NCBI RefSeq assembly: GCF_014205845.1
Contig: NZ_JACHCR010000032.1
Span: 1-56,714 of the forward strand
Source of the DNA: Mucilaginibacter cryoferens
Lineage (GTDB): Bacteria > Bacteroidota > Bacteroidia > Sphingobacteriales > Sphingobacteriaceae
Length of the DNA stretch: 56,714 bases
Direction: 5' to 3'
Of this stretch, positions 33,097-54,991 are shown one piece after another (within the stretch, counting starts at the first letter, position 1; the number at the start of each line of letters is the position of its first letter). The notes under the pieces were generated by a model, which saw only the letters and a list, made by a program, of their open reading frames with translations, had not been told where the DNA came from and searched no databases. Position numbers and translations under genes: made by a program.

Positions 33097-34077
33097 TTAG
33101 CTGTTTATCCAGCTAAATTTGTACTCCAGCATGGGGTTTTTCATCCTATCGGCAACACGTAATAAACGGCTTGGCAGGTTCATAATGTAGTCGCGGGCTT
33201 TTTCGCCGCTTTCGTTAAGATCGGTAACACTTTCAATATGCCAGTCTTCAATCAGCTCTTTCAAAATGTCGACATAGTCTATAGCGGTATAAACGCCTAA
33301 ACGCTGTGCAGCATCGGTAAAGTGACCAAAGGTTTGGCCTATTTTTAAGCCTACTTCGCGCAGGAAGTGAGCGGGCATTACAATTTTTTTGCGCATCATA
33401 TCCTCAAAGGCAATCATAGCCTCGTTTGGATCTACCTCAAATATTTTTTCGATAAAGTACTTGTAGGCTTTGGCGTGGCGGGCTTCATCGCCGGCAATTA
33501 CACCGCACATTTTTGAGAGCAGGGTATCGCCATCTTTTTTAGCCTGCGATGCCACACGCCTGTGCGATACATTAGTAGCCAGCTCCTGGAAAGAGGTATA
33601 TATAAAGTTGCGGTAAGGATCGGTGCCGGTGCCAATATCAAAGCCATCGGCTATCAGGTATTGGGTTGATACTTCCATCATTCGCATGTTAACACGGCCA
33701 GACAGGTAGAGGTATTTGTTTAACAGATCGCCATGACGGTTTTCTTCGGCAGTCCAATGACGGGTCCAGCGCATCCATCCGCCATCTTCGTTTTTTGATA
33801 CGCCATCAACCATGGTAAGCCACGATTCGTAAGTTGGCAAAGCCTCCTCGGTAATGGTATCACCAACTAAAACAGCAATCAAATCGTAGCTTAAACCGGC
33901 GGCGCTTTCCTGCAATTCCTTTATCTCGTTAAAGAAAGTATCTCTTGAAGAATCTGGTAAAAAATCAGAGGGCTGCCATATCGTATCAACAGGCTTCAAA
34001 AAATCATACATCTTTTCGAGCATGAATTTTTCAATGTGACTCATTACCTCCCTGCGTTTTTCTACAAAAAATTCCAT
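33097..34077 (-). CDS. Acyl-ACP desaturase (stearoyl-ACP desaturase type)
   Basis: Soluble di-iron enzyme that inserts a double bond into acyl chains on acyl carrier protein. The two iron-binding motifs are EENRH (residues 111-115) and DEARH (197-201), within four-helix-bundle context (WTAEENRHGDLLN, GVIAGDEARHAKAY). 326 residues matches the family. The start at 34077 (MEFFVEKRREVMSHIE) has a -7 box just upstream; the ATG at 34044 is an alternative. It lies 50 bases downstream of the GH5 gene but has its own promoter. Confidence 0.94.
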   Translation of the reverse strand: MEFFVEKRREVMSHIEKFMLEKMYDFLKPVDTIWQPSDFLPDSSRDTFFNEIKELQESAAGLSYDLIAVLVGDTITEEALPTYESWLTMVDGVSKNEDGGWMRWTRHWTAEENRHGDLLNKYLYLSGRVNMRMMEVSTQYLIADGFDIGTGTDPYRNFIYTSFQELATNVSHRRVASQAKKDGDTLLSKMCGVIAGDEARHAKAYKYFIEKIFEVDPNEAMIAFEDMMRKKIVMPAHFLREVGLKIGQTFGHFTDAAQRLGVYTAIDYVDILKELIEDWHIESVTDLNESGEKARDYIMNLPSRLLRVADRMKNPMLEYKFSWINS

Positions 34078-34127: not shown

Positions 34128-35276
34128 TCATTTTACTGCATTATAACCTATTGCGTCCATCATACACACAGGCAAATTATCTATTGATGGCTTGCCCGTA
34201 AATATCGAAAACGTAGTATTATAATCCCAAAGCATGCCTGGAATGCCCAATTTTTTAAGTGCGGTACGTACCGCTTTAATATAACGGCAGCGGCTGTTTA
34301 TATCGGCATATTTATTATATACCCCATATTCGCCACAAATTATTGGCACATCGTATTTATCGCCCCAGGCTTTCACTATCTGCAATTTATCATTTACAGA
34401 CTGCTCGTTGCCATCGCGTTTGTACATTTCGTGGTTACTTTCGCCAGGTGTGCCTTTGGCTTTTGCATTAAGGGCTGGAAAATTTTCCGCATTATAAGGA
34501 AATGATACCCCGGTGGTAGCCACCTGGTCGCCCACCCAGCTTGCCCCCTGGTGGGTAAAAAAGAAGGGCTCGTAAAAGTGAAAAGTGTATATGATATTAT
34601 CGTCGGCAAGCCGTACAAACCTGCTTAGCTCATAAATGCTGTTATAATTTGATGCCCCTATAATAAGGGTACGGGTTTTATCAACCTTGCGCAGGGCGGT
34701 TACTATGTTGTATGCCGCATCTTTCCACACATTGGGGTTCATGTGGGGTGGCTCGTTATAAAGTTCAAAAAACAAATCGCCGGCACTCACATTTTTGTAC
34801 CTTTTGGCCAGTTTTACCCATAAATCAATAATTTTTTGAGTCTCGGTGTTGCTGTTGGTATCGTTTATTTTACCATAATGATAATCTAAAACCAGTTTAA
34901 ATCCGTACCTATGGCATTGCTTAATCACTTTATCAATGTATCCGGGTATTTCTTCGGCAGGCAGGTGTTCCGATTCAAAATATGTGAAAGCCACAGGCAG
35001 CCTGATGCTCCTGAAACCAAGCCTTTTCAATAACTCAAAATCGGCATCTTTTATAGCCCCCTGGCTCAATGGTGCTTTGTTCCAGGTTTGCTCCAGCCAC
35101 GAAAAACTGATTCCATTGTTAAGCGATTGCGCACGCTTAAAAGCCAAAGCCCGCAACTGGCCGCTGTTTGGACTGCTTTTTGCAAACGAACTACTTACTG
35201 CTGCAAATAATAATATTAACAAAAGGTTTAAGAATTGCGTAAAACAGATATTTTTGTTAGTTAACTTATTACACAT
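34128..35276 (-). CDS. Glycoside hydrolase family 5 (endoglucanase-like)
   Basis: A 382-residue exported GH5 enzyme. The N-terminal hydrophobic segment (FLNLLLILLFAAVSSSFA) is a signal peptide. GH5 TIM-barrel motifs: GFRSIRLPVAF, KLVLDYHY, acid/base E175 in FFELYNEPPH, TFHFYEP and nucleophile E316 in IICGEYG. It points away from the sensor kinase and Bcs-like genes and is probably the locus glycanase, the role GH8 BcsZ plays in enterobacterial cellulose operons. The exact glycan is unknown. Confidence 0.93.
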   Translation of the reverse strand: MCNKLTNKNICFTQFLNLLLILLFAAVSSSFAKSSPNSGQLRALAFKRAQSLNNGISFSWLEQTWNKAPLSQGAIKDADFELLKRLGFRSIRLPVAFTYFESEHLPAEEIPGYIDKVIKQCHRYGFKLVLDYHYGKINDTNSNTETQKIIDLWVKLAKRYKNVSAGDLFFELYNEPPHMNPNVWKDAAYNIVTALRKVDKTRTLIIGASNYNSIYELSRFVRLADDNIIYTFHFYEPFFFTHQGASWVGDQVATTGVSFPYNAENFPALNAKAKGTPGESNHEMYKRDGNEQSVNDKLQIVKAWGDKYDVPIICGEYGVYNKYADINSRCRYIKAVRTALKKLGIPGMLWDYNTTFSIFTGKPSIDNLPVCMMDAIGYNAVK

Positions 35277-35337
35277 AACACAGCAATAACCAATAGGGCT
35301 TTAATTTTTTAATTTAACAATTCCAAGATAACGAATA

Positions 35338-36684
35338 ATGTTTGTTCAAATTACAAAAGAAGAATTAATAAAAGAGACCTCAAAAAAAGCGTGGTTCCAA
35401 ACCAATAATATTGTTTTTACAATTATTTTTCTGTACCCTCTTTTTTCCATTGTTGACTACATTTACACGCAGGATATCTGGATTCAGTTGGTTATTGTAC
35501 GCATCATTACCTGTTTAATAATTTACGGGCTGCACAGTTATATACAGTACAAAAAATACGATTACCGCGTGCTGCTTCATGTAGCTATGCTTTTGCTATC
35601 GGTAACGTCGGCCTTGCTTTGCAATATAGTAGCTGTTCAAAGCCTTAATATTTACTATTCGCTTTTTGCAACCCTTGTTTTGTTTTTTAACCTTCAGGTA
35701 TTTTGGGAGCCTGTAAACTCTATTATACAATTTTTAATATCTCTTTTACTGCTTGCTATTTTCTTTAACATGCAGCGCGAGTATAACCTGGATGTTGTAA
35801 TTAACAATGGCGGGCAGTTATTTTTTATCATATCGGCCATATCGTGCCTTATACCTAATACCCGCTATAAAGTAATGCAGCGCGAAGTGCGTTCGCTGAT
35901 ATTGATCGAAAAATCAAACGAGCAACTTAAACAGCAAAACACGGCTATCAATGAGAAAAATAACCTTATTGATATGCAGTACGAGCAACTGCGCAAGCTG
36001 GACGGGCAAAAGAACAGCTTTATAAACATTGCAGGCCACGATCTTAAAAACCTCATCGGATCTATAGTGATGAGCAATAACATGATCAAGGAAGAGGATT
36101 ACCGCTTAAGTAACGATCAGAAAGAGTTTGTTGGGTACATCACAGAATCGGCCGATAAGATGCAGTACATGCTTAACAAACTGATGGACGTGAAGGAGAT
36201 TGAATCGGCAGAGATGACGTTTAACATGGAGATCTTCGATATTAATGTTGAGGTGATGCATGTATTTAAAGGCTTGTATGAAACCGCGCAGATGAAAAAC
36301 ATCCACCTGGTTGATAATGTATTAAAATTGCCGCTTAATGTAAAGCTCGACAGGGTGTTTACCGGCCAGGTATTTCAAAACCTGCTATCAAATGCCATAA
36401 AATTTTCACAAACCAATAATACCATAAAGGTTATTACCAGCCTTCAGCGCCAGCACTTTGTTTTCGAAATTATTGACGAAGGCATTGCCATTGGCCAGGG
36501 CGAATTGGATATGATGTTTAACAAACTAAAAACCCTGAATGATACATCGGGCGTTACCGAAAGCCGTTTAGGACTTGGTTTATCTATTGCCAAGCTAATG
36601 ACCCAGGAAATGGGCGGCGAGCTATCATACCGCAGCGATGACAACGGTAACTATTTCAGAGTAGAATTTTACGTTATAAATTAA
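35338..36684 (+). CDS. Membrane sensor histidine kinase
   Basis: 448 residues. Five or six membrane helices occupy ~25-175, then a short coiled coil (NEQLKQQNTAINEKNNLIDMQYEQLRKL). HisKA: H234 in INIAGHDLKNLIGS. The ATPase domain has an N-box NLLSNAIKFSQ, a G1 box IDEGIAIG that departs from the usual DxGxG, and an intact G2 box RLGLGLSIAKLM. There is no receiver domain and no response regulator gene adjacent. It is 14 bases upstream of the BcsB-like gene, so it is probably the first gene of the polysaccharide operon. Confidence 0.9.
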   Translation: MFVQITKEELIKETSKKAWFQTNNIVFTIIFLYPLFSIVDYIYTQDIWIQLVIVRIITCLIIYGLHSYIQYKKYDYRVLLHVAMLLLSVTSALLCNIVAVQSLNIYYSLFATLVLFFNLQVFWEPVNSIIQFLISLLLLAIFFNMQREYNLDVVINNGGQLFFIISAISCLIPNTRYKVMQREVRSLILIEKSNEQLKQQNTAINEKNNLIDMQYEQLRKLDGQKNSFINIAGHDLKNLIGSIVMSNNMIKEEDYRLSNDQKEFVGYITESADKMQYMLNKLMDVKEIESAEMTFNMEIFDINVEVMHVFKGLYETAQMKNIHLVDNVLKLPLNVKLDRVFTGQVFQNLLSNAIKFSQTNNTIKVITSLQRQHFVFEIIDEGIAIGQGELDMMFNKLKTLNDTSGVTESRLGLGLSIAKLMTQEMGGELSYRSDDNGNYFRVEFYVIN

Positions 36685-36698
36685 TTATTTACAACCAG

Positions 36699-38780
36699 AT
36701 GAATAAATTTTTTTCCCTCTTAGCCTTTGTATTTCTTATTAGTACGGCGTCGAAAGCACAAAACTTTGTAACCTTTAAATCGCTGGGCCATGATGATGAT
36801 ATAATATATGGCATGAGCGGTGCCAACTCATTTTATTTTAAGATCACACCGCTTACCGAAATGAACGGTAGCAAAGTGGTTTTATATTTTGAGCCATCAC
36901 AAGCGCTAATAAAAGAGCATTCGTTTATTAACGTTGTAATAAATAACAAGCCTGCCTATAGCGGCCGGATGACAAAGGATTCTATCCAGAAACTAACCCT
37001 TAACCTAACCCGGGCCGATCTTTCAAACGATAAGTTTTTGAAAATACAGATCAAAACCTTACTTACCATCACCGATGATGAGTGTAAGGACCTTGATAAC
37101 CCGGCGATGTGGTTAAAAATTAAAAACTACTCTTACCTATCGCTTTTACGCAGCAGCAAAAATTTCTTCGATAACGTAAACATCAGCAATTGTTTTGATT
37201 CTAAAAGAGCCATTGTTTACCCGTCTAATCCATCGCTGCACGATTTAAAAGCAGTAGCATGGGCTTACTCCAGGTTGAAAAAAACACAAACCAGGGATAT
37301 CATGGTGTTTGATGAGGCGCATTTACCAGATAGCGTAAGAAACTACATTAAGGTTGGCAACATAGGCTCGCTAAATACCGAAACGCGCGACCTGGTTAAA
37401 ATTACGCCGCAAAGTGGGCAAGGTTTATTTTACCTGCACAAATCTATTAGCCTGGTTACAGATACCAACATCCGCATGGTTGAAACCAATGGCATGTTGA
37501 TGCCGGTTAAAACTGCTACACAGGAAAACGTTGTAAAAGAAATATTATTTATAACAGGCGGCGATGATACCGGTTACGAAAAAGCGATTACCACTTTAGG
37601 TAATATGAACATTCTAAATTCAACCTATGGCGATTATCTGTTAATTGAAAAGGCGCAAAACACCTTCTCAAAAACTATTGACGAGAACCGGTCAAAACTA
37701 TCGTTGAAACAGGTTGGCGGCGTAAGCGACTTTTTATCGGGTATTGGCTCGTTAAAAAGCTCGTACTCCTTTAAAAACAGCGACTTCAGCTTTACACCAA
37801 AAGAGGTAGAAATTAGGTTTGTAGCCAACTACAGCGCCTTAAATGCCGGCGACCGTGGTTTCTTTAACATATACCTTAACGGTTTGCTGATAAGCAGCGA
37901 GAAACTGGATGCTACCGGTAAACTAAATACGGCCATTACCATTAACCGTTACCAACATCATAAATACAATACTCTGGAGGCCGAATTTAGGTTTTACCCA
38001 ACCAGCGGCCATTGCAAAGATAGTTTCACCAATTTTTTTGCCGAGGTTGATGTAGATAAATCGTACCTGGAATCAAAAAATCCTTTTGTAACCAGCGACC
38101 TGAGCTTTTATCAATATCCTGAGGCATTTAACAACGGTACCACCCGTATAGTAGTTACTAAAGAGTATGCCAAATACGCTGCCGGTGCCATGGGCGAGAT
38201 CATTTATGAGTTAAACAACAACATCAACGCCAATAATTTCCCCGAGTTTGTTTACTCCAACGAAATTCCGGCAACAGATCTTAAGAAGTATAACATCATA
38301 GCGCTTTTATCTAAAAACGACCCTCTACTGGGCGAATTTAAGGATGCGCCGATTCATTTCGACAGGGATTTCAGACTTTATAATACCGATAACAATACGC
38401 CGGTTTATTCATTATCAGATACGGTATCAAATGGTTTGGCCCAGATATTTTACGGGCGTAGCAATAACGCCACCCTGGTACTTACCGCAACCGGAACCCA
38501 CATTGCCGAAGCGTTTTTAGCCGCATCGAAATCAATTACCGAGCAGCTTTCAACACTATCAAGCAACGTTTGTATCTCTGATGTTAACTCCAATAAATAC
38601 CTGTTCAACATCAACAAATCGAGCGAGAACCTGGAGTACATTGATACCAAAAGTGGTCTTACCCGTTTTTGGGATAGCTACAACCTGTATATACTGTTAG
38701 GCATACTGATATTGATATTACTATCCTTCCTTTACGTACGTTCGAGAGTTCAGCGGTCGCAGGATATGTTTAATGATTAA
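36699..38780 (+). CDS. BcsB-like periplasmic polysaccharide synthase subunit
   Basis: 693 residues. A signal peptide (FLISTASKAQ) leads into a long periplasmic region, and one C-terminal membrane helix (YNLYILLGILILILLSFLYV) ends it. Two BcsB-type halves are visible. The first is KVVLYFEPSQALIKEHSFINVVINNKPAYS with DDECKDLDNPAMWLKI. The second is VEIRFVANYSALNAGDRGFFNIYLNGLLI with FYPTSGHCKDSFTNFFAEV. BcsB guides the polymer through the periplasm and its tail helix packs on BcsA. It precedes the GT2 gene by 145 bp. It is divergent from E. coli BcsB. Confidence 0.82.
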   Translation: MNKFFSLLAFVFLISTASKAQNFVTFKSLGHDDDIIYGMSGANSFYFKITPLTEMNGSKVVLYFEPSQALIKEHSFINVVINNKPAYSGRMTKDSIQKLTLNLTRADLSNDKFLKIQIKTLLTITDDECKDLDNPAMWLKIKNYSYLSLLRSSKNFFDNVNISNCFDSKRAIVYPSNPSLHDLKAVAWAYSRLKKTQTRDIMVFDEAHLPDSVRNYIKVGNIGSLNTETRDLVKITPQSGQGLFYLHKSISLVTDTNIRMVETNGMLMPVKTATQENVVKEILFITGGDDTGYEKAITTLGNMNILNSTYGDYLLIEKAQNTFSKTIDENRSKLSLKQVGGVSDFLSGIGSLKSSYSFKNSDFSFTPKEVEIRFVANYSALNAGDRGFFNIYLNGLLISSEKLDATGKLNTAITINRYQHHKYNTLEAEFRFYPTSGHCKDSFTNFFAEVDVDKSYLESKNPFVTSDLSFYQYPEAFNNGTTRIVVTKEYAKYAAGAMGEIIYELNNNINANNFPEFVYSNEIPATDLKKYNIIALLSKNDPLLGEFKDAPIHFDRDFRLYNTDNNTPVYSLSDTVSNGLAQIFYGRSNNATLVLTATGTHIAEAFLAASKSITEQLSTLSSNVCISDVNSNKYLFNINKSSENLEYIDTKSGLTRFWDSYNLYILLGILILILLSFLYVRSRVQRSQDMFND

Positions 38781-38788
38781 GTTTTTTT

Positions 38789-38900
38789 AGTATCAAGTAG
38801 CACATTTAGTATCAAGTAATTAGTAGCAAGATTTTTAAAACGGCTCCAGCTGCTTAACACTAACTACCTGATACTAATTACTTGATACCTGCTACTAACT
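38789..38900. repeat. AGTATCAAGTA-word hairpin between the BcsB-like and GT2 genes
   Basis: The left arm (AGTATCAAGTA, then GTATCAAGTAATTAGTAGCA) and the right arm (TGATACTAATTACTTGATACC, then GCTACTAACT) are made of the same words in opposite sense. Lying inside the presumed operon, it could attenuate or process the transcript between the two synthase subunits. Confidence 0.8.
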
Positions 38901-38925
38901 AACAAAGTAACTTATACTATATATA

Positions 38926-40770
38926 ATGAGTATTTCAATTCCTGAACTTTTGGTTAATGATGGTTTTATATCACCAGGCGATCAGGTAAAAATTAAAAAT
39001 TTTTCGGAGAGGTCAGGGATGTCATATGCCAAGATCGCACTTAACTTCGGCTACATCTCCCGCAAAAACTACGAACGCTCATTAAGCAACGCCGGTTATC
39101 ATTTTGCTCAGATAAGGGAAGAGGCATTTGATCCCGAAGTGCTAAAACAAGTTGAACTAAAGTTTGCCAACGATCATGTAGCCCTCCCACTCCGGATAGA
39201 AAATAACCGGGTGGTAACCCTCATGACCGACCCCAGCAACCAGCTGTTTCTCGATTTTATAAGGTTTACCTATGATATGGAGCCCGATATCATCATAGCC
39301 TACGATTTGGATATTACCTGGCTAAGCCACAAACTGCTGGGCGAAAAATATGTAAAAGCATCGGTATATGAGCTTATGCGCCGCGATCCAAAAAGCTCGG
39401 CATCTACTACCTTTACTATGCCGCAGCTTATTTTTATATTTAGTTTGCTGGGTATAATAGCGGTGGGTATGGTTTTAAACTTTAAAAACACATCCATTAT
39501 TATTAACGTGGTTATCAGTATGTTTTTCCTGATAGCTATTATATTTAAGTTGTTTTTGGCGTTGGTGGGGTCGCGGTTCGAGCTGCACCAGGCTGTTACC
39601 AAAGAAGAAGTACGCAATGTTATTGATGACGAACTGCCGCCATACACTATACTGCTGCCGGTTTACAAAGAAGATAAACTGATCAAAAAACTCATCTGGA
39701 ACTTACAAAGTATCGATTATCCGCGCGAAATGCTGGATATAAAGCTGCTGATTGAAGAAGATGATGATAAAACATTAAAAGCGGTACAAAACCTCGATTT
39801 CCCGGCAGTTTTTGAGGTAATTGTGGTGCCTTTTCATATGCCCAAAACCAAGCCGAAGGCATGTAACTACGGTCTGCATTTTTCGAGGGGAACGTTTTTA
39901 ACCATTTACGATGCCGAAGACATCCCGGATACAGATCAGCTTAAAAAAGTGGTGGCCCTGTTTACCAAGCTGCCGGCCCATTACATTTGTATCCAAAGCG
40001 CACTCAACTACTTTAACCGTAACGAGAACTTTCTGACCCGTATGTTTACCCTGGAGTACTCGTACTGGTTTGATTATATGCTGCCCGGCCTCGATACGCT
40101 TGATATCCCTATTCCGCTGGGCGGTACCAGCAACCACTTTAAAATGGATGCCCTGGTTGAACTTGGCGCCTGGGACCCTTTTAACGTAACCGAAGATGCC
40201 GACCTTGGTGTACGCGCTTACGCCAAAGGTTACAAAGTGGCCATCATCAACTCTACCACCTACGAGGAAGCCAATAACGAGCCCATCAACTGGATTCGCC
40301 AGCGTTCGCGTTGGATAAAGGGGTATATGCAAACCTACCTGGTACACATGCGTAACCCTGCAGAACTCATCAGAAAAATTGGGTTTAAAGGTTTCCTGGG
40401 GTTTAACTTTTTTATCGGCGCTACATCGGCCACGTTTTTGGTTTACCCGCTGTTGCTGGCCATATTTATAAGCTACCTGGTGTTTGATTTTTCGACCATC
40501 CGCACGCTGTTTCCGGATTGGGTTTTGTTTATGGCCATATTTAACCTGATGGTGGGCAACATCCTGATGATATACGTAAACATGATGGCGGTATTTAAAC
40601 GCCGTTACTTTGAGCTGATATTGTTTGCCATTGCCAACCCGGTTTACTGGTTAATGCACTCGGCAGCGGCTTATATGGGCTTATACCAGTTAATAACCAA
40701 TCCGTTTTATTGGGAAAAAACCAATCATGGTTTAAGTAAAGTTAATAACCCCACAAACGTTGTTAAATAA
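38926..40770 (+). CDS. Cellulose-synthase-like GT2 glycosyltransferase with N-terminal MshEN-like domain
   Basis: 614 residues. Residues 1-130 resemble the GspE/MshE N-terminal (MshEN) domain: ELLVNDGFISPGDQ, then RSGMSYAKIALNFGYISRKN (R29-G31-G42). PLRIENNRVVTLMTDPSNQLFLDFIRF closes the domain. Two membrane helices (~160-205) precede the GT2 domain with DAED (D329-D332), the TED motif (D424) and QRSRW (459-463), the processive-synthase signature. C-terminal helices follow and no PilZ domain is present. The first MshEN motif lacks the usual RLG. It overlaps nothing and is 2 bases from the next gene. Confidence 0.88.
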   Translation: MSISIPELLVNDGFISPGDQVKIKNFSERSGMSYAKIALNFGYISRKNYERSLSNAGYHFAQIREEAFDPEVLKQVELKFANDHVALPLRIENNRVVTLMTDPSNQLFLDFIRFTYDMEPDIIIAYDLDITWLSHKLLGEKYVKASVYELMRRDPKSSASTTFTMPQLIFIFSLLGIIAVGMVLNFKNTSIIINVVISMFFLIAIIFKLFLALVGSRFELHQAVTKEEVRNVIDDELPPYTILLPVYKEDKLIKKLIWNLQSIDYPREMLDIKLLIEEDDDKTLKAVQNLDFPAVFEVIVVPFHMPKTKPKACNYGLHFSRGTFLTIYDAEDIPDTDQLKKVVALFTKLPAHYICIQSALNYFNRNENFLTRMFTLEYSYWFDYMLPGLDTLDIPIPLGGTSNHFKMDALVELGAWDPFNVTEDADLGVRAYAKGYKVAIINSTTYEEANNEPINWIRQRSRWIKGYMQTYLVHMRNPAELIRKIGFKGFLGFNFFIGATSATFLVYPLLLAIFISYLVFDFSTIRTLFPDWVLFMAIFNLMVGNILMIYVNMMAVFKRRYFELILFAIANPVYWLMHSAAAYMGLYQLITNPFYWEKTNHGLSKVNNPTNVVK

Positions 40771-40772
40771 AA

Positions 40773-42341
40773 ATGAGTATCTCTAAAAATCAATACCTGT
40801 TTATTATAACCGTAGTGCTTGCCATTTACTATTTGGCGGTGGGCATTTACATAAACCATTTGGGTTACTATAACCAGGAGAGCATTTTTTATATAGAAAA
40901 AACCAAAATCATTTTTGAAGGTCTTGGCAACCGCATAAAGGTAATGGGGCTTACCGCGCCGCTTTTACCTTTTTATTGCTCTATTATTTTTAGTTCTATC
41001 AATACCTTCTGGGCTCCACTTATAGCATCGGCCCTGGGCACCGCCGCTTTCTTTTATATTATAGGCACCGCGCTTAGCACCCGTGTTAAAAACGACGATT
41101 TTTACCTGGGTGTAGTGGTTATCCTGTTTTTTTTGCACCCGGGTATTTTGTACGCGGCCACATCGGGCAAGGCTATTTACCTGGTGCTTATCTTCTTTTT
41201 CCTGTTCTTTTTTAACCTGCTAAAATTCTACCGGTCAAACACTACGTTTCATGTATCGCTGGCCAGTATCTCGCTGGTTACGCTTATATTTTGCGATTAT
41301 AAATTTGTATGGCTTTGCCTTTTCTTTATCCCGCTGGTATTGGTTATTACGCTGCAAAGCTTAAACCTGGGCGAAAAAGAATCCATTTTCCGTTTGTTTT
41401 TAAGCTTTAACAGCCCATCGCTGCGCCGTAAGCTTGTAAGCAAAACATTTGCTATTTATATCATCCTGTTTATATTGCCCATAGCATCTATTATTTGCTA
41501 TAAGCTGCTTAACTTAACCCATGCCAGCGATCTTAACTATTTTATAGAAAGCCCCTACGCCACCTGGAATGTACTGGTTGATAAGCTTAATTATGATATG
41601 ACCACCGCCGCCACCAACTACCAGTTGCCAGAGCTATCGGTACTGGTATCGGCCAAGGTTATTTATTTTTGCCCGCTTATTTTAGTGGCTATATACCTTT
41701 TTCGCGAAAGTACTTACCAGGCTTTAACCGTATTAACGCCTTTCGCCTTCATCGAGTTTTTGCACATGAAGTACGATAAGCTGTACCTTACCTATGAGTA
41801 TTACCTTATTTTTTTAATACTGGCCCTGCTTTGTTTAATATTTAAGGCACAAACCGTTAAAAACCAAAAGATTTTTAAAATAATAGTGCTGGTTACGGTA
41901 TTGGCGCAGTTGTATACAGGCTACATTTTTTTAGCCAACTCGCTTATTCACGATGAAAAGGCCTTTATAACAACCCTGGTAAAAGGCGAGCGCAATCCCG
42001 ATCAGAACGAGAGCATGGAAATGGCCGAATATATTAACAGCCTGCCATCCAACGCGCATGTATTGATGGACGATGCCGTAGCCTACCCGGTAGCCGCCTT
42101 TACCAACAACATCAAACGCTTAACCCTGCCCTACCAGGATATGTTTTTGAGCGCTATTGAAACGCCCTATCATTACGATGATTATGTTATGATAGCCACA
42201 GCCAAAAATCCGTTTACGGGCTATACACAACTCAACAACAGGTATATACCGCTTATACGCATAGTAAACAGCGGTGTAAATTACAAGCGTGTTTACGAAA
42301 CCAACAACTGGATACTGTACAAGATAATTACCATACAGTAA
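40773..42341 (+). CDS. Polytopic membrane protein, GT-C (GT39/ArnT-like) by layout
   Basis: 522 residues with roughly ten or more hydrophobic helices through residue ~390 and a soluble C-terminal tail (MEMAEYINSLPSNAHVLMDDAVAYPVAAF ...). This order is typical of GT-C enzymes and PMT-like transferases, but no catalytic Asp-Glu motif can be claimed with confidence. Gap of 2 bases from the GT2 gene, so translation is probably coupled. It may modify or export the polymer; function unproven. Confidence 0.7.
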   Translation: MSISKNQYLFIITVVLAIYYLAVGIYINHLGYYNQESIFYIEKTKIIFEGLGNRIKVMGLTAPLLPFYCSIIFSSINTFWAPLIASALGTAAFFYIIGTALSTRVKNDDFYLGVVVILFFLHPGILYAATSGKAIYLVLIFFFLFFFNLLKFYRSNTTFHVSLASISLVTLIFCDYKFVWLCLFFIPLVLVITLQSLNLGEKESIFRLFLSFNSPSLRRKLVSKTFAIYIILFILPIASIICYKLLNLTHASDLNYFIESPYATWNVLVDKLNYDMTTAATNYQLPELSVLVSAKVIYFCPLILVAIYLFRESTYQALTVLTPFAFIEFLHMKYDKLYLTYEYYLIFLILALLCLIFKAQTVKNQKIFKIIVLVTVLAQLYTGYIFLANSLIHDEKAFITTLVKGERNPDQNESMEMAEYINSLPSNAHVLMDDAVAYPVAAFTNNIKRLTLPYQDMFLSAIETPYHYDDYVMIATAKNPFTGYTQLNNRYIPLIRIVNSGVNYKRVYETNNWILYKIITIQ

Positions 42342-45975: not shown

Positions 45976-47073
45976 CTACCCCTCCCTCCAATTCACCATC
46001 TTATTCACCGTTGCCAAACCCAGCTTTAGCCGGCCGGCTATCTGGCGCTGACTAAGGCCCTCGGCATGCAGCTGGGCAACCTGCTGGGCCTGGCGGTCGC
46101 GCTGTTGCTGGGCGTTGGTGAGCAGGTGGTCAAGCTCGTGGCAGTTGCCATCAAATTTAAATTGCAGAAAACTGTCACGGCGTTCCAGCTTGCACTGGCA
46201 AACGTTTGCGGCTCCGTAGGTTTCTTCGGTGCTGCGCTGTTTTATTTGTTTAAGGTAACGGTAGCCCGGCCATTTGCAGCTTTCGCCGATGGCAAAGGCG
46301 CTATCGGCAAAGTTGATGAGCATTTTGCTGCCCTGTAAATCGTTACGACTAATAGGCAATGCCGGGTTGCGCTTGGGCGTATGCGCCAGCACCAAAATGC
46401 TTAAGCCATGGCGGCTTTTTAAGTATTTAAGCTGCTTCATTAGCGGCAACGCCTCGTTTGCCCGCTCGGTACCCTTACGCATACAGGTAATATTATCAAT
46501 AATAAGCACCGTAGCGCCGGTAGTTTTAATGCCGCGGGTAAGCGCCTCAATTACCTCATCGTTAAAGCCGGTGGTGGCGCTGTAATGTTTGTACAGCTGG
46601 TTGTACTCGCCCCGCAAAAAATTATCATCAAACTTGTAGGTGTCCTGCCCATCGGTATAACGCTGCTCAAACTGTTTGCCGGCCAGCTCAAAATCAATAT
46701 ACAACACGGGAGTGGCCGGGGCATCGGGCCCGAAACCGGTAATAGCCTTACCCCGGGCAATGCTTTCGCCCAGCTGCACGGCTAAAATACTTTTGCCCAT
46801 ATTGGTATCGGCAAACAAAATGCATAGTTCGCCCTGCAGCCAAAACCGGCCGAACAACATTTGCGGCGTATCGGCCTCACGTTCCATAGTCATCCATTGG
46901 TTAGCCTTGTAAATATGGAACAAGCTGTTGGGGTTATACTCATCGGCCTCTACATGGTCGAAAGCCAGCTGATCGGCAGTAGGTTGCCCGGCGTTGACCG
47001 GTTTGCGTTTTTCGGTGAATTGAATGTTGAAGTTGTGCGACATGTTTTTTGAGGTTTGTGTTGTGGGTTGCAT
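45976..47073 (-). CDS. RepA/KaiC-like AAA ATPase with C-terminal helix-turn-helix
   Basis: 365 residues. Walker A: LFADTNMGKSILAVQLG. Walker B: GATVLIIDNITCM, followed by LSILVLAHTPKR and a DLQGSKMLINFADS segment typical of RepA-like hexameric ATPases. The C-terminus is a compact helix-turn-helix (GLSQRQIAGRLKLGLATVNKMV). Such ATPases are found on plasmids and integrated elements of Bacteroidota. No integrase, primase or mobilisation gene is next to it, so it may be a leftover. The start may be 47073 or 47043. Confidence 0.82.
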   Translation of the reverse strand: MQPTTQTSKNMSHNFNIQFTEKRKPVNAGQPTADQLAFDHVEADEYNPNSLFHIYKANQWMTMEREADTPQMLFGRFWLQGELCILFADTNMGKSILAVQLGESIARGKAITGFGPDAPATPVLYIDFELAGKQFEQRYTDGQDTYKFDDNFLRGEYNQLYKHYSATTGFNDEVIEALTRGIKTTGATVLIIDNITCMRKGTERANEALPLMKQLKYLKSRHGLSILVLAHTPKRNPALPISRNDLQGSKMLINFADSAFAIGESCKWPGYRYLKQIKQRSTEETYGAANVCQCKLERRDSFLQFKFDGNCHELDHLLTNAQQQRDRQAQQVAQLHAEGLSQRQIAGRLKLGLATVNKMVNWREG

Positions 47074-47425: not shown

Positions 47426-47542
47426 GGAGACGATAAAACACCCCTTATAACGAGCGATGATAATTGAAGAAAATTAAAGAAATAAGCAATGTCTTATTAA
47501 ATTACACATCTATTTAAACCTTCTTATATCTTGAGTTTATAT

Positions 47543-50500
47543 ATGTTCCATATCAACTTGTATAACGGCGCGCTGGAGGGAGTACTGTTCGTTGGGCTCA
47601 CTTTTGCCATACAGCTATGGTTTGTCAAAAGCGCCAATCGTCCGGCTAACCGATTTCTCGCCGCGGCCCTGTTTGTGCTGGTCTTTTGGATAGCCGGAAT
47701 ACTGGGTGCTGATATTGAGCAAGGGAAACTGCTGCCGCAATTTACACTGGCTTTTGGGCCGCTGATCTATTTTTACGTACGGAAAGCTATCTGGCACACA
47801 CTACATTTCCATCTGGCGGATCTGTTGCATTTCTGCCCCGTTCTTTTGGTACAGGCTTTTTGGTTACCAGGAATTGCGTTTATATTAAAACCCTTGACGT
47901 TCATATCGGTCGGCACTTACCTTTATCTATCTCATCGGCTGATAGAACGGTTTTATGCTAGTCAGAAATTTAAAGAAGGTGATCGTCATCGGTATGAATG
48001 GCGCTGGTTGAATCAACAACTGGCAAGTTTAGGCCTGGTGTTATTTTTATGGATACCGCTCATTGTAATTGATTATTTTGGTTTTCATTTCGCGTTAGAT
48101 CGCTATGTTTATTACCCACTCAATTTACTTTTCGGATTGATGGTTATCCGGATGAGCGTAGTAGTGTTTTTCAGACCCGAAACCGACGCAACCGGGGGGG
48201 CTCCATTATTTCCTAAACCATCAGCCTCAACAGCTTTGAAACAAAAAGGTAACTGGCTCAAGAAAAAAATTGAGGCCAGCCTGCTGTATCAGGACCCGGA
48301 TTTAAGTGTCGGTACTTTGGCTGAGCAACTGGATATACCCGCCCATGAATTATCCCGGATCATCAATGGTGGGCTCAAAAAAAACTTCAGTGACCTGATC
48401 AACGAATACCGCATCCGGGATGTGGTAGCTAAAATGCTGAACCCGGCTTATAATCATATTACGCTGTTGGGTATAGCTTATGAATCGGGCTTCAATTCCA
48501 AAACAACTTTTAACCGCACTTTTAAAGAAATAACTGGAAAAAGCCCGGCAGAATATAAGAATGAACTCAAAAAAGAGCGACCATTTTCTAAAATGGAACG
48601 TTTGCAGGGAAACAGGCCGGTAGTTTTGCACCATGAAACCACATTTAAATGGTCTCATGAAAAAATCAACCGTGATACTATGTTTCGCAATTATTTAAAA
48701 ATCGCGTGGCGCAATATTATTCGCCACAAAACTTCGTCAGTAATAAATGTTGCTGGCCTCGCCGTGGGGTTTGCTGCATTCCTTCTAATTTTTCTTGTGG
48801 TTCGTTATGAACAAGGCTTTGATCAGTTTCATGTTCACAAAAAAAAGTTATTTAGGGTAATACGTGTGGCGCGTAATGCGGCACATGAAGACTACCGCAC
48901 GGGGATGCCGTTCCCTGTTGCCCCAAGTTTGAGGAGCAATTTTCCGCAATTAGCCAATGCCGGAGCTATTGTACCTGATGACTTTGTACAAGTTATTATA
49001 AGCGATAATGGAAATGGCGCTGCAAAAAGATTTAGAGAAGTACACGGAATATTTTTCGCCGAGCCGCAATTTTTTGACATGTTCAGTTTTTCAATAGTGG
49101 CAGGTGAATATCGAAACTCACTTAAAATGCCAGGGAACGTTTTATTAACGCAGAGCTTGGGAGATAAGTATTTCGGCCATTGGCAAAAGGCTACAGGAAA
49201 AATATTGAGGATGGATGGCGTAACAGTAAAGGTTTGTGGCATTTTAAAAGATTTGCCTGCAAATACCGATTTCCCGATTAAAGCGGTATTGTCATACGCT
49301 ACACATCAAAATTATGCCGAACTGAAAAAGCTCATGAACGACTGGGGCTATATTGAAGAAGACAATTACTGCTTTGTTCAATTGAACGAAAGCGATTCAC
49401 CTGCACAGTTCAAAGGTGAGCTTAAGGAGTACGCTGATCGGTATATCAAACCTGTCAATCCATATTATTATCTATCCATACAGCCCTTAAATGAAATGCA
49501 CTTTGATGCACGTTACGGAACGTTCGATGGCCGCGTTTTTAGCGAAAACCTTATCATTGTGCTCAGTACCATCGGTATTTTCCTATTGGTAGTGGCCTGT
49601 GTAAATTTTATCAATCTTAGTACAGCACAATCCGTAAACCGCGCACGGGAAGTTGGGGTACGCAAAGTATTGGGCAGTAGCCGCCGCCAACTGATCCTTC
49701 AATTCCTGGGTGAAGCAGCGCTTATCAGCTGTTTTGCATTTTTCATCGCCCTGGCTGCTGTGATGATTATTATACCGGCCATCAACAACCTACTTGATAT
49801 CCACCTTACTGTCTCAGCCTTGTATGAGGGTAATATGATCTTCTTCCTTGGGTCTGCGTTGGTAGCGGTAACTCTTTTAGCCGGGTTTTACCCTGCTTTC
49901 CTGCTATCCGGCTTTAACCCGGTTCGGGTATTAAAAAGTACACTGTCTGCACAACAGGGCGGTATTTCGCTGCGGCGTGGTCTGGTTATTTTTCAGTTTT
50001 TTACAGCACAGGCACTTATCATTGTTACAATAGTAATGGTTTCCCAAATGAGCTACGTTAATACCGCTGATATGGGTTTTAACAGGGAAGCCATCTTAAC
50101 TGCCCAGCTTCCGCGGGATAGCGTTGGTATTGCAAGCCAGACTGTATTGCGCGATGAATTAATGAAAATACCCGGTATCGAAAAAGTGAGTTTCGGTATG
50201 GGTGCCCCGATCAGCGAACGGTGGCTCAGAGAATTGCGAACACCTGATAATGTAGGTAAAGTGCCCAATATGATCACCGCGTATAAGCTGAACGATACAG
50301 GCTTCTTTAACCTGTTTCATTTGCAGTTTATTGCGGGCCGCCCCTATTACGACTCAGATTCGACCCGCGAATTTGTTGTGAGCGAAAATGTTATTCGTAA
50401 ACTGGGTTACCGAGACCCTCAGCGAGCCCTAGGGAGCAGGATTATCGTGAATGGCTTTAATCGACAGATCGTGGGCGTTGTGAAAGACTTTCATATTGCC

Positions 50501-51088
50501 TCGCTGCGCGACAGCATTGTCCCCGTGGTAATGTCGACCAGTAAAGAGAGCTATGGCATGGTTAGCGTAAAACTTAATTTATTACAGGCCAAGCCTGCAA
50601 TCATTGCCATGCAAAAACTGTGGGATAAACATTATCCAGATTTCGCGTTCACAAACAGTTTCCTTGACCAAGACGTCGCCGCTTATTACCGGCAGGAAAC
50701 TCAACTATCGGAGCTCTACAAATTGTTTGCAAGCGTTGCAATATTTATATCCTGTTTGGGTTTGTATGGATTGATAACATTTATGGCGGTGCAGCGGAAA
50801 AAGGAGATTGGCGTACGAAAAGTTCTTGGTGCACCCCTCAGCGCGATACTGATCCTTCTATCACGGGAGTTTACATTGCTAATTGGTATCTCGTTTCTAT
50901 TCGCGGCACCGGTTGCATGGTGTTTTATGCATAATTGGTTAAAACAATATGCCTACCGGATCAATTTGGGTCCCGAGCTGTTTGCCGTAACCATTATAGG
51001 CTCAATCCTGATCGCATGGGCAACGGTAGGCTATACTGCCATCAAAGCCGCGTTGGCCAATCCAGCAAAAAGTTTGCGCAATGAGTAG
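47543..51088 (+). CDS. Fusion of membrane AraC regulator and MacB-like ABC permease
   Basis: About 1180 residues in one frame. Part 1 (~1-360): several membrane helices, then an AraC helix-turn-helix (SVGTLAEQLDIPAHELSRIINGG ... ITLLGIAYESGFNSKTTFNRTFKEITGKSPAEY). Part 2 starts near an in-frame ATG at 48680 with MFRNYLKIAWRNIIRHKTSS, the usual start of a stand-alone Bacteroidota permease. It has two periplasmic MacB domains and two FtsX domains (GVRKVLGSSRRQLILQFL and GVRKVLGAPLSAILILL). The ATPase is not encoded nearby. ATG 47543 is preferred to the TTG at 47531. Confidence 0.9.
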   Translation: MFHINLYNGALEGVLFVGLTFAIQLWFVKSANRPANRFLAAALFVLVFWIAGILGADIEQGKLLPQFTLAFGPLIYFYVRKAIWHTLHFHLADLLHFCPVLLVQAFWLPGIAFILKPLTFISVGTYLYLSHRLIERFYASQKFKEGDRHRYEWRWLNQQLASLGLVLFLWIPLIVIDYFGFHFALDRYVYYPLNLLFGLMVIRMSVVVFFRPETDATGGAPLFPKPSASTALKQKGNWLKKKIEASLLYQDPDLSVGTLAEQLDIPAHELSRIINGGLKKNFSDLINEYRIRDVVAKMLNPAYNHITLLGIAYESGFNSKTTFNRTFKEITGKSPAEYKNELKKERPFSKMERLQGNRPVVLHHETTFKWSHEKINRDTMFRNYLKIAWRNIIRHKTSSVINVAGLAVGFAAFLLIFLVVRYEQGFDQFHVHKKKLFRVIRVARNAAHEDYRTGMPFPVAPSLRSNFPQLANAGAIVPDDFVQVIISDNGNGAAKRFREVHGIFFAEPQFFDMFSFSIVAGEYRNSLKMPGNVLLTQSLGDKYFGHWQKATGKILRMDGVTVKVCGILKDLPANTDFPIKAVLSYATHQNYAELKKLMNDWGYIEEDNYCFVQLNESDSPAQFKGELKEYADRYIKPVNPYYYLSIQPLNEMHFDARYGTFDGRVFSENLIIVLSTIGIFLLVVACVNFINLSTAQSVNRAREVGVRKVLGSSRRQLILQFLGEAALISCFAFFIALAAVMIIIPAINNLLDIHLTVSALYEGNMIFFLGSALVAVTLLAGFYPAFLLSGFNPVRVLKSTLSAQQGGISLRRGLVIFQFFTAQALIIVTIVMVSQMSYVNTADMGFNREAILTAQLPRDSVGIASQTVLRDELMKIPGIEKVSFGMGAPISERWLRELRTPDNVGKVPNMITAYKLNDTGFFNLFHLQFIAGRPYYDSDSTREFVVSENVIRKLGYRDPQRALGSRIIVNGFNRQIVGVVKDFHIASLRDSIVPVVMSTSKESYGMVSVKLNLLQAKPAIIAMQKLWDKHYPDFAFTNSFLDQDVAAYYRQETQLSELYKLFASVAIFISCLGLYGLITFMAVQRKKEIGVRKVLGAPLSAILILLSREFTLLIGISFLFAAPVAWCFMHNWLKQYAYRINLGPELFAVTIIGSILIAWATVGYTAIKAALANPAKSLRNE

Positions 51089-51475: not shown

Positions 51476-54400
51476 TCAGAATGTAGGTTCTTGGCTATAA
51501 GTCAATGCCCATTCTGAATCATGTTTTTTAATGTATTCTTTTAACTTAATTGGATAGAAATCAAAATTGCATTCATACCCCTTAAACTCATCAATTTTTA
51601 GATTTTCAAATTTATAATTCAGATATTGATAATAGTATGCAGCACTTAAGTCTAAACCCTCTTGAAGTCTGTCTAAAAACTCCTCGATATTATTTTCCTT
51701 TAAGAACAAACAGTAAAAATACAATGCTTCGAGGTAGTAATATTTTATATGAAACAGTAAGCCCAACGCAGATATAAAATGCTGTTTTTTAGATACTATG
51801 TCAGCATCTTGAAAAGCAAACATCAATTGCTGTAGGCCAGCAGTATACGGATTAGTTATAACAAGCTTTTGTATTCTTTTAACTTCCAAAGGCTTAATTT
51901 TCGACAGTGTGTAAGTGCACTGCATTATCTCCAAATGTTCATCAGAAAAAAGATTTCTAATGTAGTTTTCCAACTCATTGACATCATTCAAATTAAACCT
52001 AAAATCGTTTTCAAACATGTAAAAATTTGGTTCTCTTATCTTACTTGTATCTGGAATCCCTAAGTAAAAGAAATCATTTTGCAAATCTGTATTAGTATTT
52101 AAGTCATTTAGAATAAATGAATTTACATACTTAATTGTATGTCCTTCCATACTATGAATAGATGATATATAATCATAGTACTTATTCAAATTTGGATTTT
52201 CCTTTTCAAAGCTTCTCTTCTCAATCTCACTGGGAGGCATAATTTCGACAAATTTTTTGTATACAATATCGAAATCTGTGTGGAAATATGTTTTACCTAA
52301 ATCTAACACACTTATTAATGTCTCAGCGTCCTCTATCTCCGAAAAATACCTCTTTAGCCTTTCAAGCTTGTTTTGATAATCCAAAATCTGTTTTTCGTTT
52401 ACTATGTAATAGCTAATTGAATAAACATAATTTAACAAATAAAATTTCTCTGGCACCTTTGTTTTGGATGAAACTTCTATTTGTTCAATATAATCCAAAA
52501 CATTCATCATATTATTTTTTACCGAATTATGAAGTTTTAGAGCCATAGAGAAGGATTTCTTCTTCCCTATATATTTAATCAATTTTAATATAAAGCAACA
52601 ATAAGAGTATGCATCATTAAAATACTTTTGCTTTACTGAAATATCTCTCTTATTAAATTGTAATTCCGCGAATCGCCTTATTATTGGCTGCAATTGCAAA
52701 GTCCCATTTATATCTTCAACCAAAGATTTATCTCTAAGTATACGAAGCTCTTTATCCGTAATATGATTACTAGATGTAGAGCTACTAAAGCATTTTTTAA
52801 AATCTGTTAAACTAATACCATCTGGAAACAAATGTAAAACTTCGAACGCTAGTCGCTCCAAAGGATTTAATGTTAAATAAGAATAGTTTATAGATTGATA
52901 GATTGACTTTGTTCTCTCTATGTTAATATCTGCGTCATTTTTGAAAATTTGAGTAAAATTTTCACTTGTAGATTCAAAAAAGTGACGCTCAAGCTGCTCC
53001 TTCAACTCAGATATGAATTTGAATCTTGTTCTTGAACGAGTAACCAATCTTATAGCTAATGGATTTGTATTTAATAAATTCTCTAAGATATCCATTCGCA
53101 AAATCTTCAATTCGTCAACATCGGTAATTGGACCGTAATCTCGTAAAAAAAGCTTTACTGCGTCATCTGTTACGAGTGGGCTTAATGCATAAATCTCTTC
53201 AAATTCCAATCCTAAAGTTTCTCTAGATGTCAAAACAATATTTGCATAGTCAGTTGCAAATTCCAATAAAGAGAGGACTTTTTTAAAATCGTCTTTGTTA
53301 CCTAAATTAGTTACTGTTTCAAAATTATCGAGAATGATTAATATGTCTTGCTTGTTTAGATTGCTTGTCAAGTAATCCTTGAAATTTACTATATTTAGTA
53401 AATTAAACCCATTAATGAGTAGATCTTCAAAATCAACAAAATTCTTCACATTTTCACAAGAGATAAACGAAACCCCCAATTTAAAATAGCCTCTATTGTA
53501 TAGTTCATAGGCACATTTCTTTATCAAAGTCGTTTTGCCTATCCCTCCAGAACCTTTTACATTCAACAATTTATTAGAATTTGTAATAGCGATAAGGCTT
53601 TTAGTAATTGAAGCCTGTTCTTCAATTCTTCCAACAATTCCATGCAAAGATTTTCTCCCAAACTCCAAATTTAACTTAGTTCCATATAGCGAATTATTGG
53701 TAGGATTCCCTTTATTTATCTTAGGTGGAAGAATTGTATTTAAATAAATTGTAATATCCTCTTCAATGTAAGATAAATCATGATTTCTTAAGGTCTTGTA
53801 AAAAAAACGACTTACTAGTGAATGTTTAAATGTTCTAATTTTTATAATTGATGTATTTTTTGAAATTTCAAAGTCTTCGTTAGTAATAATAACTTTTATA
53901 ATTTTATCATTTAAAATACTTGAGTATAAATCCTCAAACGATACCAACTGACTTTTTAAATTATCATCTTCAATATATAATTTCCCCTTAAAACATTTTG
54001 TCAAAATGATCAAATAATCAAAATCATCAATTGTCTGTAGTGTTCTTAAATTTAAAAAACCAGTAAAAATATCTACATCTAAATCTCCAAAACATTTTAA
54101 AATATGTTTATACTCTTCATCAATAGAAAAATCTAACGGATTGGGATATAAAATTGCAATCTTGCTCGATCTATTTTGTGTAGGGACGCTGGATAGCAAA
54201 TGTTCTTTGCCTCTTTTGTCAAACTTCTTGACGGCTAACAAATCATCTATAATATTATCGATATCGGAATACGAATCCATTTTAATTGGCAACAAATATT
54301 GATACCCCTTAAATAACTGAGGATCAGTAGAAAGTATGTAGTGTTTGTTATTATTACCAAATATTTCGTCAAGACTTGTAAATAATGAATTTACAAATGG

Positions 54401-54991
54401 GTCCTCAAAACTGAAACCAATAAAAAGAATTAGTTTATCCGTAAACAAGGTTTTGAATTTGTTTATCGCTGCGTTTTCACTTAAATAAAGACGTTCATAA
54501 TCTTGCTTAAATAACACACAAGAATCTGGCTCGCTAAATGAACCATGTATTTTAAAAATAAATTTTTCATTTCCTTTGTTAATCTCACTTACATTAAAAT
54601 TAGAACTATGAATTGTAGGAACTATAGTTTCGTCAGCTTTTTCGAAAGCATTATCATAATTAGTAGTAACAATTTTCCCTGACAATTCAATTAGCTTTTT
54701 ATGTAGTGAAAAATCGCCCTCTTTGATATTAAAATTTTGTTTTATATATTTTCTAATGGAAGTATGATCTGCATTTAAAAATTCTAAAACTCCTATTGGG
54801 TCCATAGTTTTATTTTCCATCAGAGGAATAAACCCGTTATATTTACCACCCTCAGAAAATTCAATAATATTTTCTACGAGAGCTCTCCAAGTTGGCAATT
54901 TGAATCTCTTTGATAAGCCGGCACCGGCAAAAATAACTAGATTATCACTTTCAATAGCCTCCTTAATTGTTTTAGGAATTTCAATGTTCAT
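51476..54991 (-). CDS. SIR2-STAND NTPase, Avs-type anti-phage defence protein
   Basis: 1171 residues. SIR2 domain ~1-260: FAGAGLS (22-27), TTNYD (109-113), KIHGS with H149, and GFSFEDP (192-198). These predict NAD+ hydrolysis. An unassigned alpha/beta segment covers ~280-415. STAND NTPase from ~445: P-loop GSGGIGKTT (480-488), Walker B ILIILDNFE (~555), VLTSRE and NPLAIRL. A winged-helix-like region and a long helical C-terminus follow, probably the sensor. This order (effector, NTPase, helical sensor) is that of Avs proteins. The gene is much more AT-rich than its neighbours. Confidence 0.88.
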   Translation of the reverse strand: MNIEIPKTIKEAIESDNLVIFAGAGLSKRFKLPTWRALVENIIEFSEGGKYNGFIPLMENKTMDPIGVLEFLNADHTSIRKYIKQNFNIKEGDFSLHKKLIELSGKIVTTNYDNAFEKADETIVPTIHSSNFNVSEINKGNEKFIFKIHGSFSEPDSCVLFKQDYERLYLSENAAINKFKTLFTDKLILFIGFSFEDPFVNSLFTSLDEIFGNNNKHYILSTDPQLFKGYQYLLPIKMDSYSDIDNIIDDLLAVKKFDKRGKEHLLSSVPTQNRSSKIAILYPNPLDFSIDEEYKHILKCFGDLDVDIFTGFLNLRTLQTIDDFDYLIILTKCFKGKLYIEDDNLKSQLVSFEDLYSSILNDKIIKVIITNEDFEISKNTSIIKIRTFKHSLVSRFFYKTLRNHDLSYIEEDITIYLNTILPPKINKGNPTNNSLYGTKLNLEFGRKSLHGIVGRIEEQASITKSLIAITNSNKLLNVKGSGGIGKTTLIKKCAYELYNRGYFKLGVSFISCENVKNFVDFEDLLINGFNLLNIVNFKDYLTSNLNKQDILIILDNFETVTNLGNKDDFKKVLSLLEFATDYANIVLTSRETLGLEFEEIYALSPLVTDDAVKLFLRDYGPITDVDELKILRMDILENLLNTNPLAIRLVTRSRTRFKFISELKEQLERHFFESTSENFTQIFKNDADINIERTKSIYQSINYSYLTLNPLERLAFEVLHLFPDGISLTDFKKCFSSSTSSNHITDKELRILRDKSLVEDINGTLQLQPIIRRFAELQFNKRDISVKQKYFNDAYSYCCFILKLIKYIGKKKSFSMALKLHNSVKNNMMNVLDYIEQIEVSSKTKVPEKFYLLNYVYSISYYIVNEKQILDYQNKLERLKRYFSEIEDAETLISVLDLGKTYFHTDFDIVYKKFVEIMPPSEIEKRSFEKENPNLNKYYDYISSIHSMEGHTIKYVNSFILNDLNTNTDLQNDFFYLGIPDTSKIREPNFYMFENDFRFNLNDVNELENYIRNLFSDEHLEIMQCTYTLSKIKPLEVKRIQKLVITNPYTAGLQQLMFAFQDADIVSKKQHFISALGLLFHIKYYYLEALYFYCLFLKENNIEEFLDRLQEGLDLSAAYYYQYLNYKFENLKIDEFKGYECNFDFYPIKLKEYIKKHDSEWALTYSQEPTF

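Follow-up and report, generated by a model that had tools for sequence, protein, structure and literature searches.

Cellulose-type bacterial matrix-polymer synthases are known for their control by cyclic di-GMP (c-di-GMP), and a locus of Mucilaginibacter cryoferens raises the question of how a synthase of this sort could be switched on without that messenger. The window, meaning the whole stretch of DNA analysed, is the 56,714-nucleotide contig C32 (NZ_JACHCR010000032.1) of a 6.95-Mb genome. At 34128..42341 it holds genes for a membrane sensor histidine kinase, a BcsB-like periplasmic partner, a processive glycosyltransferase of family 2 (GT2) and a polytopic GT-C-like membrane protein in one direction, with a gene for an endo-glucanase of glycoside hydrolase family 5 (GH5) divergent from them; the preliminary description of this DNA had drawn the same arrangement, and all five open reading frames (ORFs) lie where it put them. 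The reading favoured here, at a probability of roughly 0.7, is a synthase-dependent glycan secretion system that has lost its control by c-di-GMP and has the co-inherited kinase as its likely input. The locus is the Bacteroidota branch of the published xag-like or sfz cassette (bcsB-xagB-xagC) rather than a new kind of system.

The first step is the relation of the locus to cellulose (Bcs) systems. The BcsB-like protein (36699..38780, forward strand; PF03170, 73.7 bits against a cut-off of 21) has a signal peptide, two beta-sandwich plus alpha/beta repeats and a C-terminal membrane helix. The preliminary description had made this identity one of the points on which it could fail, and the protein matches BcsB in both profile and structure tests: a PDB search with a profile of 13 relatives retrieves BcsB at E 6e-4, although BcsB is not among the PDB matches of the single sequence. 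The synthase (38926..40770, forward strand; PF13632/PF13641) has membrane helices and the motifs DAED (329), GGTSNHF (399), TED (422) and QxxRW (459), which are conserved across 12 aligned relatives, and its best solved relative is E. coli BcsA (7lby, E 5.5e-13). The GH5 enzyme (34128..35276, reverse strand; PF00150, 116 bits) is close to cellulases, with endoglucanases at the top of its solved-structure list (E 1e-42 to 1e-31) and CcsZ (6uje) at E 2e-20; it carries a hydrophobic N-terminal signal at residues 8-34 by hydropathy and the motifs NEP (174-176) and GEYG (315-318), which presumably contain the catalytic glutamates.

Such likenesses, together with a 60-bit match of the synthase to CelA (TIGR03030), would suit a plain cellulose locus whose lineage has lost BcsC, PilZ and BcsZ. 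BcsC and PilZ are indeed absent, as had been proposed, since neither BcsC_C (PF05420, for which the E. coli control gives a match) nor PilZ (PF07238) is matched anywhere in the genome at E <= 0.001. The proposed absence of GH8 BcsZ stands at the locus, where GH5 is found instead, and is wrong for the genome, where GH8 is matched twice on other contigs. Membership in a canonical cellulose locus was rejected on the lack of PilZ and PF05420 matches and on the TIGR03030 cut-off, which is 699 bits, and a cellulose locus stripped by loss is quite improbable. Instead of PilZ, the synthase has an N-terminal MshEN domain that the preliminary description overlooked (PF05157, 36.1 bits against a cut-off of 23.1, at residues 57-138, ahead of the GT2 domain); moreover, MshEN, the GT-C-like gene and sometimes an outer-membrane barrel are common to relatives in other phyla, as features of the xag-like cassette.

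The gene order is conserved. Gaps are 14 bp between kinase and BcsB-like gene, 145 bp between the latter and the GT2 gene, and 2 bp between the GT2 and GT-C-like genes. In an even draw of 201 genomes of the order, a BcsB-like match occurs in 58, of which 50 belong to the window's genus and 8 to genus g3; at least 3 same-genus genomes are without one among the matches listed. Relatives of the kinase, BcsB, GT2 and GT-C-like genes are clustered in 19 of 20 loci hand-chosen from these 58 genomes (14 same-genus and 6 g3), and the adjacency whose conservation the preliminary description had proposed as a check is therefore not due to chance. The remaining locus, L045, has BcsB alone, and its genome (G091) lacks a GT2 at E <= 1e-100. 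Across a sample of the phylum (395 genomes from 170 genera), a BcsB-like match is found in 12 genomes and 7 genera, and a GT2 at E <= 1e-100 in 11 genomes, all within those 12; the twelfth has a weak match (E 7.4e-4) with internal stops. Named genomes were also scanned with the GT2 alignment, and the following counts come from the best 80 loci of at least 593 matching stretches. Among 29 Bacteroidota loci (L082-L110), BcsB is present in 28, GT-C in 29 and GH5 in 22. The kinase stands beside BcsB in 27 of them versus none of the 51 other loci, and both Bacteroidota loci without it are truncated by a contig end. The 51 others, which include L115, a metagenome-assembled genome titled Bacteroidetes, show a BcsB-like gene in 21, a GT-C relative in 29 and the order BcsB-GT2-GTC in 10, all of these, and the kinase count with them, being lower bounds, because the profiles were mostly built from Bacteroidota sequences and simple ORF calling overlooked the GT2 at 10 of the 51 loci. 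The named close homologues of the window's GT2 and GT-C-like proteins come almost entirely from Mucilaginibacter.

Three further features touch the module. A desaturase gene lies behind GH5 (33097-34077; PF03405, 470 bits) and neighbours the module at 13 of the 14 loci from the window's own genus but at none of the 6 from g3. GH5 is degraded, with no full ORF, in L033 (13382-14203) and a fragment in L036 (7357-7740), although the synthase genes persist in both; it was not found in L041 and L042, which keep the synthase genes. The gap between the BcsB-like and GT2 genes contains an inverted-repeat hairpin at 38788-38896, built from TAGTATCAAGTAATTAGTA. As a candidate for regulating the GT2 it was rejected: it folds well (z -3.7) but is repeated in 39 genome copies (at most two mismatches) versus 0 for a reversed control, and it looks like a member of a dispersed palindromic repeat family.

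The next step is the state of the receptor. MshEN receptors are built on two 24-residue motifs, RLGxx(LVI)(LVI)xxG(LVI)(LVI)xxxxLxxxLxxQ (PMC5013675). By motif comparison the domain in the synthase spans residues 4-138 (38935..39339, forward strand) and has both motifs at the correct spacing. Motif 1 begins SIP and motif 2 SYA, and the c-di-GMP-binding arginine and the glycine two residues on are missing. In an anchored scan, the arginine is absent from both motifs in 51/51 Bacteroidota copies (mostly Mucilaginibacter, a few genomes counted twice), and R-x-G is present in at least one motif in 34/48 non-Bacteroidota copies. Anchoring was adopted because a scan without anchor strayed into membrane helices of Bacteroidota sequences; each scan keeps its best-scoring segment, a choice biased towards finding the motif in either group. 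Seven short or anchorless GT2s were left out, namely L098, L108, L109 and L159 (Bacteroidota or short pieces) and L120, L122 and L126 of Mariprofundus, which show R-x-G in the scan without anchor and in the tree data. The MshEN fold is probably kept, because the tenth-position glycine of motif 2 persists in 50 of the 51 Bacteroidota copies; in 12 relatives, G42 of motif 2 is invariant and K36, R46 and Y49 are nearly so. The ligand-making enzyme is missing as well: among 52 genomes (10 carrying G handles, the other 42 taken from the 80 loci), GGDEF is matched in 0/18 Bacteroidota versus 34/34 others, the latter including L115 with two weak matches. The window's own genome gave no match to GGDEF or PilZ, in a search that did not extend to EAL, HD-GYP or other nucleotide cyclases.

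It might be argued that the divergent MshEN still binds c-di-GMP or another cyclic dinucleotide that controls the synthase, with the kinase as an unrelated neighbour. The retained MshEN-like pattern, with its tenth-position glycine, and the near-invariant residues of motif 2 do suggest some ligand or partner. This explanation is nonetheless unlikely given the arginine lost throughout the Bacteroidota copies, the GGDEF and PilZ results within the scope just given, and a kinase adjacency that is hard to call coincidence.

The kinase itself (35338..36684, forward strand) carries HisKA with His234 (PF00512, 33.5 bits) and HATPase_c (PF02518, 63.7 bits), and its hydrophobic stretches fall within residues 24-172. 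Its history was followed on a quick GT2 tree of 74 sequences, with MshEN columns excluded and BcsA not included (23 hand-picked Bacteroidota rows, L115 and 50 others). Twenty-two Bacteroidota rows group together (SH-aLRT 93); L064, which has no kinase, is basal, and the 21 rows with a kinase are nested inside (SH-aLRT 99). Within this clade, the motif was thus lost before the kinase was gained or together with it. L065 and L115 fall outside the main clade on long branches, and the tree requires 2 changes for the kinase label and 9 for the motif label. Motif loss is also seen in lineages that possess GGDEF.

The third step concerns export. The preliminary description regarded the set as a self-contained, non-canonical Bcs-like machine; the BcsB homology and the conserved set uphold part of this, while self-containment fails and the set falls within the published kind. 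Other genera carry a gene for a COG4313/FapF-like outer-membrane barrel, a type whose 12-stranded fold has been shown in a relative, between bcsB and GT2. The Mucilaginibacter relative is encoded away from the locus, beside acyltransferase and esterase genes, and GT2 and barrel are jointly present or absent in 58 of 61 genomes. On contig C5 of genome G000 (L074, 7602-12382), genes for an Acyl_transf_3 acyltransferase, for two AXE1-type esterases and for the barrel are co-directional, the barrel gene being at C5:156459-157277. BLAST clustering shows comparable sets at 7 further same-genus loci, some of which add a TPR protein or another barrel.

The fourth protein (40773..42341, forward strand) is of XagC/Sfz3 type, and its GT-C assignment is drawn from homologue names and weak profile matches of relatives. 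Some homologues bear the name 'Glycosyltransferase RgtA/B/C/D-like', PMT_2 is matched in 3 of 23 relatives (best 3.9e-5, weak, and below the cut-off where the score is known), and the protein after the GT2 in L065 matches PMT at 2.4e-4. The GT-C family profile matches the Mariprofundus proteins after the GT2 at 69 and 82 bits, and by order and length these are taken to be Sfz3. The uncharacterised Sfz3/XagC is thereby tied to a GT-C-like family found in several phyla, which may be weakly connected with lipid-linked-sugar transferases; the window's protein is a possible transferase of this sort. A weak resemblance to such enzymes, a homologue (P0196) named 'Beta-monoglucosyldiacylglycerol synthase' and a locus with no outer-membrane channel gene would fit a glycan retained in the envelope, as a glycolipid or wall decoration. 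Retention is very unlikely, however, with a BcsB partner, a QxxRW motif, a GH5 with a signal-like N-terminus, an in-operon barrel in relatives and co-occurrence of GT2 and barrel. In addition, xagA and xagB of Xanthomonas oryzae pv. oryzicola are required for the raised biofilm of the delta-rpfG strain, although single xag deletions in the wild type cause no drop in extracellular polysaccharide or biofilm (PMC3609779).

Under the favoured reading of secretion freed from c-di-GMP, the GT2 would polymerise a UDP-sugar and push the chain across the inner membrane, and the BcsB-like protein would, like BcsB, take it up in the periplasm. On that side of the membrane, the GT-C-like protein would probably attach a side sugar or other lipid-linked unit. 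The chain would exit through the 12-stranded channel, whose gene lies away from the locus, and would be trimmed or released by the secreted GH5. Its linkage is most likely beta-1,4, and O-acetylation is possible. MshEN would no longer be a c-di-GMP receptor, and the co-inherited kinase would most likely give the on/off input. More tentatively, and doubtful as it stands, MshEN may have been recast as a docking or sensing domain for the kinase's signal, so that a c-di-GMP-controlled synthase was rewired in Bacteroidota; if true, a lineage without c-di-GMP would have gained a way to switch a BcsB-type secretion machine directly, with no second messenger. With its receptor domain kept and its nucleotide site lost, the locus offers a natural experiment in switching on a matrix-polymer synthase without c-di-GMP.

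Several observations weigh against this account. Besides the make-up of the 51-copy sample, 14 of the 48 other copies are also without R-x-G, GGDEF being present in 9/9 of those genomes tested, and one clade largely carries the motif and GGDEF contrast. The window has no response regulator adjoining the kinase. Only L065, among the loci examined, has one beside it (single-domain, 9534-9977, between the kinase and the BcsB-like gene; PF00072, 96.7 bits), and in L064 the module occurs with no kinase, so the machine does not depend on it. Of the 20 order loci, 15 have a complete GH5 ORF, 2 retain it in degraded or fragmentary form, and in 3 it was not found. The barrel of this genome has only 32% identity to the in-operon barrel of L046, barrel paralogues are common, and barrel and GT2 lie on different contigs in 25/48 genomes and more than 230 kb apart on one contig in 6/48. 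The weak profile matches behind the GT-C assignment stand beside the lack of a Pfam match for the window's protein and a profile of 23 relatives that found nothing in the PDB below E 0.4. No family member encountered has a known product.

Elsewhere in the window, a 1171-residue protein (51476-54991, reverse strand) has an N-terminal SIR2 domain, and its first ~220 residues resemble the anti-phage proteins ThsA (103 bits), LmuA and Dsr1, which makes it a possible defence gene. An AAA_25 ATPase (45976-47073, reverse strand), whose C-terminal stretch resembles a resolvase helix-turn-helix when its translation is read by eye, may mark an integrated element. One ORF (47531-51088, forward strand) joins an AraC-type helix-turn-helix to MacB/FtsX permease domains and is either an unusual fusion or a missed stop.

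Among known systems, canonical Bcs shares the BcsB fold and the GT2 motifs, but the window has MshEN and a GT-C-like protein and is without PilZ, BcsC and a local GH8. The clostridial ccsZABHI locus similarly replaces GH8 with GH5, has no BcsC and may O-acetylate its product; however, CcsA carries PilZ and CcsB is not a BcsB homologue (PMC7710045). E. coli NfrBA-YbcH likewise pairs an MshEN-GT2 exopolysaccharide synthase with an outer-membrane partner, although the MshEN of NfrB is C-terminal and binds c-di-GMP, whereas the window's precedes the GT2 domain; NfrA is a TPR-barrel, and the main text of that paper makes no mention of BcsB (PMC8669469). XagABCD of X. cucurbitae (L125, gene names assigned by position, not annotation) has a GT2 with an MshEN motif and, unlike the window's locus, no BcsB-like or GT-C-like profile match, no adjacent kinase and 27 GGDEF matches in its genome. 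The gene just upstream of its xagB-like GT2 matches the barrel profile at 69 bits, which by position makes XagA a probable channel of the same kind, and a XagA-type barrel is proposed here as the outer-membrane exit of xag-like systems.

The closest likeness is to the cassette that comparative genomics linked, as bcsB-xagB-xagC-xagD, to stalk formation in iron oxidisers (PMC4643136) and that was described as sfz1-6, with Sfz3 having no known domain (PMC8250860). No report of it in Bacteroidota was found in the literature searched, in which subscription journals were thinly covered and texts partly available. The window's GT2 has an N-terminal domain of EpsE/MshEN type, with a BcsB-like gene directly upstream and a protein of ~500 residues directly downstream, all co-directional. 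A glycosyl hydrolase is part of the sfz set, where Sfz4 is described as family 10; the possible counterpart here is GH5, which is of another family and is encoded in the opposite direction. The GT2 scan itself recovered Mariprofundus L120, L122 (M. ferrooxydans PV-1) and L126, all with BcsB-like neighbours, and with a GT-C-like one in L120 and L122 (L126 is a short contig). Unlike sfz, the window's locus has a sensor kinase preceding BcsB, a lost c-di-GMP motif and a genome without GGDEF, and no stalk is implied. New in the Bacteroidota branch, therefore, are a receptor domain that lacks its ligand site and has a kinase gene alongside, in genomes missing the ligand-making enzyme, and, in Mucilaginibacter, a barrel that is unlinked to the synthase yet co-occurs with it.

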